Shown here in pieces: positions 24,686-36,803 of a stretch of 36,803 nucleotides of DNA. The stretch's first letter is position 1, and each line of letters begins with the position of its first letter. Under the pieces are notes generated by a model. It ran no database searches, was not told the origin of the DNA, and saw only the letters and a program-made list of their open reading frames with translations. A program made the position numbers and the translations under genes. Source of the stretch: a virus; IMG/VR virus record IMGVR_UViG_3300044998_001004, positions 1 to 36,803 of that record. One strand, 5' to 3'.

Positions 24686-32424
<7,739 letters not shown>

Positions 32425-32428
<4 letters not shown>

Positions 32429-32847: not shown

Positions 32848-34394
32848 ACTTCACGGCAAGGTACGCACTCGACCCTATCGCCGCCAAGTTCCACAACGAC
32901 TTCGAACACCACACCAAACTCCTCACCGGAGCCGTCGGCACGGGCAAGACGTTCACCTGCCTGATGGAGTGTGTGATGTTCTGCATGAGGGTCATCCCAC
33001 CGACCCAACGCGAGTTCACCGGGTCCCGGAAAGGTCGGGTACTCGTGTTCCGGAAGAGCTACCCACGACTCGAAACTACCGTCATCGAATCGGTCAAGAA
33101 ACTCTTCGGCCCGACGATCAGCCTCCGCTACGGTTACCCAATCGAAGCCTTGCAGGTGGGCATCCCGGACGTCTATCACCCGGGTGAGACGATCGACATC
33201 GAGTGGCTCTTCTACGCCATGGCCGACGAGACCAGCAAGGACGAGATCGACAAACTCCGCTCGCTGGAAGTCACGTGTGCGTACGGCAACGAGATCAGCG
33301 AGTATGGGTCATCGGACATCATCCCGCTCGTTTTCGGGCGGTGCGGCCGCTACCCGGAAGCCGTCAAGGAGCCGAACGCCGAGGGCGTCCTCGTCCCGGT
33401 CATGCGCAACGGCAAACCCGTTGGTTACTGTGGTGAGCGGCAGGTGATCGGGGATTACAACAAGGGGTTCAACGACACGTGGGTTGCCGAATGGCACACG
33501 AAGCCCTCTACGCGCCCGAAGTCGGTCGCGATCCACGACTACCCGCCGCCAATCATCGAGGTCGTCGATGCGGACGGCGAGGTCCTTCGGTATGAACCAA
33601 ACCCGGAAGCAGAGGCATACGCGAGCAAGCAGCCGGGCGGGTTCTCCTACTGGGTCGACCAGTTGGAGATGAACAAGCACAACCGCCCGTACATCGAGAC
33701 CCTGCTCCTCAACCGCTACATCTCCAGAAGCTCTGGCCGGAGGGTGTTCTCGCGGTACGAGGACTCGCGCAATCTGATCCCGGAGAAGAGTGTCCCGGAG
33801 ATCAACCCCGCGAAGACAATCTTCATCGGCTTTGACCACTCCGGGCTCAATCCGGCGATGAGCATCATGCAGATCGGCACGCACGGAATCTACATCCTTG
33901 CCGAACTGTACGCATTCGACGCGGCGCCGGACGAGTTTATCCACAGCGTGTTCATACCATACGTGGTTGAGCGAGACTGGCCGCGGGAGGGACTCGACAT
34001 CATCTGTGACCCCGCGGACCCACGGGGCCGTAGTATCGGTGCCCACATGACCATGGTGAAGGCCCTACACACCCTTGGTTTCACGAGAGCACACCCGGCC
34101 GGTCCGTGGGGGCGGGACCCTGAACGCATGATCCGCCTCGTCAACGAGAGTTTCGTCCGCGGCCTACTGCACGTCTCGCCCCGGTGCGAGTTTACGCTGA
34201 CCGCGATCCGCAGCGGCTACAGGTACCGGGAACTCAGGAGCAACGTTGTTGCGGAGAGTCTGCGTCCTGTCAAGGACCAGTACTCTCACATTGCGGACGC
34301 CATCGGTCTGGCCGTCGGGCACATCCGCCTTGGTTTCACGGGCGCCGGGAACGCCGCGTCAGGACCAATCGGAGTCAGCGAGGGCATCGTTTAG
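32844..34394 (+). CDS. terL: Large terminase subunit (516 aa)
   Basis: This is the ATP-driven DNA packaging motor and headful/end-cutting nuclease. Walker A is GAVGTGKT (29-36), close to the N-terminus. VLVFRKSYPRLE (67-77) is the typical adenine/arginine-proximal strand. LEVTCAYGNEISE places the catalytic Walker B glutamate at E150. The RNase H-like nuclease has D331 (FIGFDHSG), D389 (IICDPAD) and D485 (YSHIADAIG). Length is normal for the family. It docks on the portal, here encoded on the opposite strand. The last 36 bp overlap the end of the convergent 541-aa gene, so no terminator separates the two. Confidence 0.92.
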   Translation: MNFTARYALDPIAAKFHNDFEHHTKLLTGAVGTGKTFTCLMECVMFCMRVIPPTQREFTGSRKGRVLVFRKSYPRLETTVIESVKKLFGPTISLRYGYPIEALQVGIPDVYHPGETIDIEWLFYAMADETSKDEIDKLRSLEVTCAYGNEISEYGSSDIIPLVFGRCGRYPEAVKEPNAEGVLVPVMRNGKPVGYCGERQVIGDYNKGFNDTWVAEWHTKPSTRPKSVAIHDYPPPIIEVVDADGEVLRYEPNPEAEAYASKQPGGFSYWVDQLEMNKHNRPYIETLLLNRYISRSSGRRVFSRYEDSRNLIPEKSVPEINPAKTIFIGFDHSGLNPAMSIMQIGTHGIYILAELYAFDAAPDEFIHSVFIPYVVERDWPREGLDIICDPADPRGRSIGAHMTMVKALHTLGFTRAHPAGPWGRDPERMIRLVNESFVRGLLHVSPRCEFTLTAIRSGYRYRELRSNVVAESLRPVKDQYSHIADAIGLAVGHIRLGFTGAGNAASGPIGVSEGIV

Positions 34395-35984
34395 GAAGTC
34401 CTGCCAGAACTCGACGATGACGTCGAACCCCGGGGCCATCTCGACAGGGACAAGCCCAGACAACCGAATCCCAAGCTGCTCCCGCGACACACCCTGAATC
34501 GCGCTGTACCGGACCATTGGCTCGCCGGCCGGCAGGGCCTTGAGCGCCTCGGAGAGGGCGCCGACGACCTCCGGGGCGGAGTCTGGGTTCTTGGCCACCT
34601 CACTGATTGCCGCGATGGCGTGGGCGCTGATGACCATGTCGCGGTGGGTCGCCGCCAACTCCACGAGGGACGTGTTCGAGTTCGCTGTCGTCGGACCGCG
34701 CCGGTTCTTGAGGAGAGACGTCCATGCACTATCACGGTTACGGAGTCTCCGGACCACAGAGGCCCCGGCCAGATAGTCCCGCATGGCCAGATCAAGATGG
34801 CCGCGCACGTCGTAGATGAGTGTGCGGTACAACCGCCGGACCTTGTTGCCCTCGCTACGGGCGGTATAGGTGTCTGCGACCTTTGGCAGCAGCTCCAACA
34901 AGGTGGTCACGATTCCGAGCGTGGCATCCGTGGCGTTACCCGAATGAGTGAGCAGTGCGGCGGCCGTCTCCTCGATCGTCTCCTTGAGTCGATGTTCGGC
35001 ACGGGCGACGTACTGTGGGCGCGACTTCGTCGTCGGCAACGGCTCCACCGCCGAGTACGCCGGGTTCGGCACCTCTGGATCGCAGAGCCAGACACCAACG
35101 CTGGCCCCACCACGCGCCGCGAGCAACTTCGACAGCGACAGTAAAGACGCCTCGTCGCGGACAGCCTCAAGTGCCACGATGCCGTCAAGCACGGCCGACA
35201 GACTGATCCAGAACACACGGACCGGGAGGTGATTGACCCTTGCAACCCGCGGGCCAACAGGCAGCGTCGGGCGAGAACGTGGTGTCCGCTGCACGCCGCG
35301 CACTTTAGCGTCGGCCCACCGTCGCAGAACGATCTGGTACGGCACCGAGATGATTTCCGCGTACCGCTGCAATGTCATCCACCCGACAGGCTGCCCATCA
35401 ACACGGGACAGATGGAGATACTGACTGACGAGGAACTCCCGATCCGTGATTGAGTACGACCAGTTGACTCTGGAGTCGTCCAACTGCACGTTCATCGGGA
35501 TCGGGGCCCCGTGCGGCACGAGGGCGTCTCCATGCCAACTGGCGCCCAGACTGGACACCCACCGCGGTGTCCCGCCCTCTTCTACCCACGCCCGCACCCG
35601 GCGAAGGAAGGACCGGCTGTCAACCCCAAGGTTGAATGCGAGGGCCTTGAAATTCTCGAAGACGAGGCCGCTTTCGACCCTGATCTTTCCCCATTCCTTG
35701 GCATCCGAGGGTCCGGGGGTCCATGCGGCGGAGGACAGCAGGGCCTGATTTTCCGGCGGGGCTTCGCCGTCGAACAGGAATTCGGCAGTTTTGTCGGCGG
35801 TGATCATCCTCAGTCTTGCCTCGACTGCGTTCGTGAGGCTGTGGTGGATTCTCGCTGATCCCCCGCGCCCCGCGGTCCCGACAACGTCGACAACGGCGTC
35901 CCGCAGGGCGGGATGGGTGGACGCGACTTTTCTGCGAAGCGGTGGATAGGTTTCTCGGATTTTATCAGTGTTGCTAGTACTCAC
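34359..35984 (-). CDS. Orphan hypothetical protein (541 aa)
   Basis: No family recognised. The start is GTG at 35984 (MSTSNTDKIRETYPP) with only a weak GAGTGAG upstream, so the true start is uncertain. It is mostly helical. Around residues 210-240, GWMTLQRYAEIISVPYQIVLRRWADAK has the shape of a helix-turn-helix or winged helix, and the following stretch is basic. The C-terminal half contains several hydrophobic helices (ATLGIVTTLLELLPKVADTY, ISAHAIAAISEVAKNP). It has one cysteine, unlike the virion proteins. It stands alone, convergent with the terminase gene and divergent from the hairpin-rich unit, which suits a regulator or replication/partition factor. That is inference only. Confidence 0.6.
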   Translation of the reverse strand: MSTSNTDKIRETYPPLRRKVASTHPALRDAVVDVVGTAGRGGSARIHHSLTNAVEARLRMITADKTAEFLFDGEAPPENQALLSSAAWTPGPSDAKEWGKIRVESGLVFENFKALAFNLGVDSRSFLRRVRAWVEEGGTPRWVSSLGASWHGDALVPHGAPIPMNVQLDDSRVNWSYSITDREFLVSQYLHLSRVDGQPVGWMTLQRYAEIISVPYQIVLRRWADAKVRGVQRTPRSRPTLPVGPRVARVNHLPVRVFWISLSAVLDGIVALEAVRDEASLLSLSKLLAARGGASVGVWLCDPEVPNPAYSAVEPLPTTKSRPQYVARAEHRLKETIEETAAALLTHSGNATDATLGIVTTLLELLPKVADTYTARSEGNKVRRLYRTLIYDVRGHLDLAMRDYLAGASVVRRLRNRDSAWTSLLKNRRGPTTANSNTSLVELAATHRDMVISAHAIAAISEVAKNPDSAPEVVGALSEALKALPAGEPMVRYSAIQGVSREQLGIRLSGLVPVEMAPGFDVIVEFWQDFLNDALADSDWS

Positions 35985-36158: not shown

Positions 36159-36175
36159 AATTACAAAATGTAATT
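36159..36175. promoter_or_regulatory. Operator-like palindrome AATTACA-AAA-TGTAATT
   Basis: A perfect 7-bp inverted repeat with a 3-bp spacer ends seven bases before the -35 hexamer at 36183. Its AT-richness stands out from the GC-rich surroundings. The geometry suits binding of a dimeric regulator next to or over RNA polymerase. Confidence 0.5.
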
Positions 36176-36182
36176 GGTTCGG

Positions 36183-36210
36183 TTGACAAGTTATATCTAT
36201 GCTATAGAAT
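36183..36210 (+). promoter_or_regulatory. Strong sigma70-type promoter
   Basis: TTGACA (36183-36188, perfect consensus), a 16-bp AT-rich spacer, and TAGAAT (36205-36210, 5/6). An alternative, overlapping extended -10 reads TGC-TATAGA. This is the best promoter match in the window and would start transcription near 36217, just before the first hairpin. Confidence 0.75.
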
Positions 36211-36262
36211 CCGCCTTGTGACCGATGCAATAGGTGCATCGGCACTAAATGGAGAAAAGGAA

Positions 36263-36646
36263 ATGGAACATTATATCCAAGACGCCATGTTGGCGTTTCT
36301 GGGACGAGAGGCGTCCCAGAGCGCCATTTTGCGGGCGGCCGTGAAGGCCGCCCGCAAAGACGGGGTCCAGCCAACGCCACGCCAGTTGCATGAAGCGGCG
36401 GTGGCGGTGTGGCAGGGGATCGGCGGCGTGCCGCCGACCCTCTCGCTCTGCCGGGTCGTCTTGACCCGGCAAAAGCCGGCGGAAACACGCGCCCAACGCG
36501 GCCCGAAAGGGCCGCGCCGGGCCGACAACGCCGACGTCGGCGTTGTCGACGACGAGGAGCTTGCCCTGCTCATCCGAGCATGGGCAAAACTGCCGGCGCG
36601 CCTTCGCCGGCAGATTCTCGCCCTCGCGGGGATAACGGCAGAGTAG
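36263..36646 (+). CDS. 127-aa protein encoded within the hairpin-rich unit
   Basis: The ATG at 36263 follows GGAG with 8-nt spacing and lies about 46 nt downstream of the predicted transcription start. The protein (MEHYIQDAMLAFLGREASQS...) is basic and probably helical. Its parts are SQSAILRAAVKAARKDG, PTPRQLHEAAVAVWQGIGG, a basic linker with TRAQRGPKGPRRADNADVG, and DDEELALLIRAWAKLPARLRRQILALAG. The final part resembles short LPARLRRQILALA helices seen in small DNA- or protein-binding regulators, but no family is recognised. The TAG stop lies in the loop of the 36627-36658 hairpin. Ten stem-loops lie wholly inside the reading frame. Expression would need ribosomes to melt them all. Confidence 0.6.
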   Translation: MEHYIQDAMLAFLGREASQSAILRAAVKAARKDGVQPTPRQLHEAAVAVWQGIGGVPPTLSLCRVVLTRQKPAETRAQRGPKGPRRADNADVGVVDDEELALLIRAWAKLPARLRRQILALAGITAE

Positions 36647-36680
36647 CCGTTATCCCCGAACCCGGGCCCTTCGGGGCCCG

Positions 36681-36721
36681 GGTAACAAGGAACCCGCCCG
36701 CATGGCGGGTTTTTTGTTACC
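36681..36721 (+). terminator. Rho-independent terminator, nested double stem
   Basis: An inner stem AACCCGCC / GGCGGGTT with CGCAT loop (36691-36711) runs into six T residues (36710-36715). An outer stem GGTAACAA / TTGTTACC (36681-36688, 36714-36721) encloses it. It closes the hairpin-rich unit. The opposite strand lacks a matching T-tract, so it works rightward only. Confidence 0.9.
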
Positions 36722-36745
36722 TAGGTCATAGCAACGCAGTCTCAC

Positions 36746-36803
36746 GGCCCAACGGCCCAACGGCCCAACGGCCCAACGGCCCAACGGCCCAACGGCCCAA
36801 CGG
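36746..36803 (+). repeat. 8-bp tandem repeat GGCCCAAC (7.25 copies) at window end
   Basis: Seven perfect GGCCCAAC units plus two bases run to the last base of the window. The array is therefore open-ended; its true length is unknown. It may mark a terminal or origin region, or simply the point where a short-read assembly collapsed. Confidence 0.95.

Follow-up and report, generated by a model that had tools for sequence, protein, structure and literature searches.

How can a stretch of phage DNA consist almost entirely of consecutive hairpins and carry a gene at the same time? The question is raised by positions 36218-36721 of a linear viral record of 36,803 bases, analyzed here over its whole length (the window). 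A preliminary description had placed the hairpin block at these coordinates, correctly, and had proposed a large structured phage RNA, a structured mRNA encoding a regulator, or a DNA-level cruciform element used in replication or packaging. The structured mRNA fits best of the three, in that the block is coding, its ribosome site is open, and its stems depend on synonymous codon choice as well as on the protein; the regulator was a guess, to which no family match lends support.

The block is the last complete feature ahead of the contig end and belongs to a compact transcription unit. A sigma-70-type promoter on the plus strand (TTGACA-16-TAGAAT; 36183-36210) matches 11 of 12 consensus positions, in agreement with the near-consensus promoter described earlier, with 0.3 such sites expected in the 1.8 kb scanned; it predicts a transcription start near 36217-36218. 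Immediately 5' of its -35 box, a perfect inverted repeat (AATTACA-AAA-TGTAATT; 36159-36175) may serve as an operator. The ribosome site and 127 codons of the preliminary description are likewise in place, with GGAG just 5' of the ATG at 36263 and a plus-strand frame running to 36646. The terminal plus-strand hairpin (36684-36718; fold and pattern scan) acts with its T run as the predicted intrinsic terminator; stem and T run are present at 36696-36715, as had been claimed, although similar patterns are frequent by chance (2.0 expected). Positions 36183-36721 are a self-contained one-gene unit of an uncultured tailed phage, made up of promoter, gene, and terminator. With the frame, promoter, and ribosome site all intact, we judge an MDA chimera or assembly artifact unlikely.

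Next to the unit, the contig ends within tandem ACGGCCCA repeats (7.5 exact copies; 36744-36803), the array being cut by the contig end. A four-copy version of the ACGGCCCA array is also present in 12 scattered bacterial contigs, whereas no viral contig other than the window has it; the 8-mer was dropped as a clue to the host, since these scattered genomes gave no signal. The terminase of the window phage is 24-29% identical to those of Pasteurella Pmp11, Cronobacter Ss1, BcepC6B, and others, and the portal and internal virion proteins gave weak family matches. Judged by its terminase and portal, the phage is related to Cronobacter Ss1, BcepC6B, and similar phages. A single frame at 24686-32428 encodes a 2580-aa protein that weakly matches the virion RNA polymerase family (E 0.011), contains a zincin-like HEVAH motif, and is probably a large protein of the virion interior. 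The minus strand at 34359-35984, divergent from the unit with the hairpins, encodes a 541-aa protein; neither phages and viral contigs nor Pfam and NCBIfam yielded a homologue of it.

Codon usage, GC phasing, and ribosome site identify the 127-codon frame as a real gene of this phage. At 0.257, its codon score falls among those of the other genes of the phage (0.14-0.37), against -0.30 and -0.46 for the other two frames of the strand, and GC by codon position is 0.75/0.50/0.78. A single-sequence structure model of the product is helical, with a confidence of about 84 for residues 20-50 and about 77-80 up to residue 70, followed by a low-confidence linker and a helical pair. Neither family profiles nor PDB gave a significant match, KfrA-N and XRE-type DNA-binding regulator profiles were not matched, and comparison of the modeled fold returned no significant match. 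Searches of IMG/VR, GTDB genomes, phages, plasmids, PDB, and 31 related phage records detected no homologue, two of the scans relying on exact 8-residue patterns, which remote relatives can escape. A DNA-level search of phages also gave no match. The predicted product is a small helical protein with a basic linker, perhaps DNA binding; to judge by its size, linker, and helices, it is possibly a regulator.

Folding of 36218-36721 predicts 15 hairpins separated by gaps of 0-21 nt; 13 have stems of 8-15 bp, and the other two are weak (3-4 bp). The consecutive stem-loops of the preliminary description, 14 by its count, are present. An inverted-repeat scan found 12 hairpins with perfect Watson-Crick arms of at least 6, in keeping with stems described as mostly perfect, with bulges, mismatches, or G-U pairs in those starting at 36291, 36380, 36414, and 36561. 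Loops measure 4-6 nt and include the GAAA and TTCG tetraloops already noticed, one of each, both closed by C-G. The stems are mutually unrelated in sequence, and no motif is evident that is common to stems or loops.

All hairpins are given on the plus strand. Instead of the 5' leader that had been placed ahead of the stems, the transcript opens at its predicted +1 with a stem-loop of 11 bp and one bulge (36218-36245; fold). Ten strong stems, the number stated before, lie inside the frame. Six of these are perfect and were recovered by repeat scan and fold: 13 bp at 36328-36358, 9 bp at 36449-36471, 8 bp with a C(GAAA)G loop at 36497-36516, 11 bp at 36523-36548, 9 bp at 36590-36613, and 13 bp at 36627-36658, the tenth, whose loop holds the stop codon TAG. 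A bulged hairpin of 15 bp at 36291-36326 was found by both methods and contains a perfect core (36298-36320), and three others were predicted by folding: a weaker hairpin of 9 bp with three G-U pairs (36380-36403), one of 12 bp with one A-C mismatch and one G-U (36414-36443), and one of 11 bp with one bulged base (36561-36587). Downstream, a perfect 10-bp hairpin with a C(TTCG)G loop (36660-36683; repeat scan and fold) precedes the terminator.

Folding strength far exceeds that of both kinds of shuffled control called for in the preliminary description. The folding energy of 36218-36721 is -326.8 kcal/mol, whereas dinucleotide shuffles average -221.9 (z -14.1; 0 of 100 as low). For the gene alone, -241.1 was observed versus a mean of -185.0 for synonymous permutations (z -8.2; 0 of 200 as low), and perfect stems with arms of at least 7 number seven, where synonymous permutation predicts 0.95 and reached at most 4 in 100 trials. 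The stems of this mRNA exceed synonymous expectation. Synonymous permutation destroys them, and therefore they are no by-product of the protein. Stem counts in TerL, the portal gene, and the 7.7-kb gene of the same phage revealed no excess over synonymous permutations, and no 200-nt stretch in the rest of the window went beyond z -4.5. Perfect hairpins with arms of at least 7 reach 12 per kb in the block versus at most 3 per kb elsewhere in the window. Within 1.97 Mb of compared DNA, mostly phage, the block ranked first in hairpin density; related phage genomes surveyed contained at most 4 perfect hairpins per kb.

The arrangement of this structure resembles that of a message. The 5' end is predicted to be paired at +1 (itself predicted from the promoter), and the longest unpaired run in the transcript is no more than 8 nt. 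The ribosome-binding region (36246-36265, plus strand) is open, with mean unpaired probabilities of 0.5-0.76, the highest value (0.76) falling on the Shine-Dalgarno stretch. Codons in both stem arms fit the usage of the phage equally, as expected if coding constraint shaped both. Folding energy is nearly equal on the two strands, with 8 versus 6 G-U pairs and almost all pairs Watson-Crick; therefore, the letters do not tell which strand folds, and a comparison of G-U with A-C mismatches in the window was uninformative as a strand test.

We tentatively favor, at somewhat less than even confidence, a hairpin-tiled, cut-resistant message selected at the RNA level in a one-gene phage unit. The arrangement of synonymous codons gives the message a predicted fold of about 13 local hairpins in a row, and selection would act on folding in the RNA. 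The hairpins may leave no long single-stranded run for endonucleases, while both ends would be capped, the 5' end by the first hairpin and the 3' end by the terminator. Ribosomes could still load at the open site and unwind the hairpins as they travel. A small protein, which may be a regulator, would then be encoded by a long-lived, nuclease-resistant message. In Escherichia coli, pairing of the 5' end is known to shield mRNA from RNase E (Emory et al. 1992; Bouvet and Belasco 1992, both listed in PMC3997798), and host RNase E plays a leading part in the decay of T4 mRNA (PMC3014915). We infer cut resistance from the message-like layout together with these two precedents.

The main rival, unlikely in our estimate, is DNA-polymerase template switching, whereby one arm was repeatedly copied into the other with no structural selection, and the resulting changes were tolerated, leaving the frame intact. 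Mainly perfect stems unrelated in sequence are what this mechanism produces, both strands fold alike, and template switching, which creates and repairs stems (PMC8794818), mimics compensatory change. However, about 10 events within 127 codons would be needed, with frame and coding signature unbroken. Template switching is also unlikely to be the whole explanation because the hairpins are confined to one transcription unit, from predicted +1 to terminator, and spare TerL, the portal gene, and the 7.7-kb gene; because the ribosome site is open; and because 3'-arm codons are no less typical than 5'-arm codons.

Somewhat less probable is a regulatory mRNA fold, in which the hairpins slow translation or bind a protein of phage or host and so set protein amount, not message stability. 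Such a role would suit a gene that is small, insulated, and preceded by a possible operator, and many strong stems in a coding region are expected to slow ribosomes. Translation start is nonetheless left open, and the lack of an evident motif across stems and loops is unlike a protein-binding array.

We consider improbable a DNA-level element acting through cruciforms or hairpins in single-stranded phage DNA, such as a replication origin or packaging site beside the ACGGCCCA repeats. The two strands do fold nearly equally, the tandem array adjoins at the contig end, and no replication genes were recognized among the window proteins searched, so that this end may border a replication region. 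On the other hand, the block coincides exactly with the predicted transcript from start to terminator, such an element would have no reason to spare the ribosome site, and the 12 unrelated bacterial contigs bearing the 8-mer array are devoid of dense hairpins. A purely noncoding structured RNA with an incidental frame is very improbable: the fold is very strong, the protein matches no family, and long chance frames occur in GC-rich DNA, yet the coding signature described above, the Shine-Dalgarno sequence with its ATG, and the result of an Rfam search (4227 families; the best match, at 28.5 bits, fell short of its gathering score of 100, and the remaining matches were also subthreshold) all disfavor it.

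An analogue of the hairpin-tiled gene emerged among relatives of the window phage, 80 of which, all distant, were reached by terminase alignment. Four of them (L010, L024, L026, and L027) carry a MoxR-type ATPase gene that is packed with short, perfect hairpins and lies in an operon directed away from the terminase genes. Among 80 MoxR-type homologues collected for hairpin counts, more than 30 have 8-18 hairpins per gene versus about 2 in synonymous shuffles. This hairpin-rich clade (L115-L123, L125, L127-L144, L148-L150, and L152; e.g., L010:4500-8650) has homologues outside it with no hairpin excess, namely, L124 (61% identical), L126 (60%), and the Acinetobacter-phage-like L154. The tiling covers the MoxR/CobS-like ATPase gene plus about 2 kb around it, with loops of 3-4; it is densest where the gene begins and thins out over about 3 kb. 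Around the start codon (-30 to +15), hairpin coverage is 0-0.1, whereas most other positions have more, with a maximum of 0.5.

In the MoxR clade, stems reappear at matching codon positions, and synonymous changes in the two arms compensate each other, e.g., acagcaa/ttgctgt and acagtaa/ttactgt. A gap-free alignment of 18 of these genes has 32 cells changed on both sides; shuffled controls give 14.2, with none of 500 as high as observed, and slid controls give 6-18. The structure was chosen from these same, related sequences, which favors it on percentage paired. The covariation is support for selected pairing, not proof. An antisense-RNA idea was dropped because the strand test, uninformative in the window, was contradictory in this clade, being antisense-like in MoxR and sense-like in the flanking genes. 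Dense hairpins in another record (L048:5560-5840), a cluster of long intergenic hairpins in repeated terminator-like units, were set aside as a parallel to the window block, being partly intergenic and of a different kind.

Hairpin-tiled coding sequences, as predicted from these genomes, do occur in other dsDNA phages. Like the window unit, the MoxR-type operon (L115-L152) has stems far over synonymous expectation, lies beside terminase genes, and keeps its start codon clear. It is not homologous to the window gene, however, and spans several genes, with hairpins of mixed composition whose arms of 6-9 and loops of 3-4 compare with 8-15 and 4-6 in the window block. A broader proposal, which we rate as possible though doubtful, is that some dsDNA phages tile chosen transcripts, genes included, with hairpins as general armor against host or defense nucleases. 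The strategy would then have arisen independently in two cases, the window unit and the MoxR-operon clade. No report of hairpin-tiled genes in dsDNA phages was found in a literature search whose reach stopped short of most subscription journals.

Known systems share parts of this organization. The ompA and papA mRNAs of E. coli have a stem-loop at or near +1, then an open ribosome site, and a paired 3' end, as is predicted for the message here, whereas in the window unit, whose stability is likewise a prediction, hairpins run through the whole coding sequence. MS2 and related ssRNA phage genomes also fold coding RNA into many local hairpins; unlike these, the window block is one gene of a dsDNA tailed phage, has no repeated motif resembling a coat protein operator, and gives no reason to suppose that its RNA is packaged. 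GOLLD and ROOL are large, conserved, structured noncoding phage RNAs. Their dense structure, like that of the window block, is phage-borne and extends over hundreds of nucleotides, but the window block is coding and matches no Rfam family.

To conclude, the locus is an unusual and real doubly coded phage gene, for which we infer a mechanism of message protection. Selection on folding within coding sequence is usually weak and diffuse. If the favored explanation is true, this unit would be a clear natural example of a doubly coded gene, with nearly all of its message in strong hairpins and the ribosome site alone open. The independent, covarying form in an uncultured phage clade makes a single-contig curiosity less likely, and synonymous recoding would render message shielding by phages directly testable.
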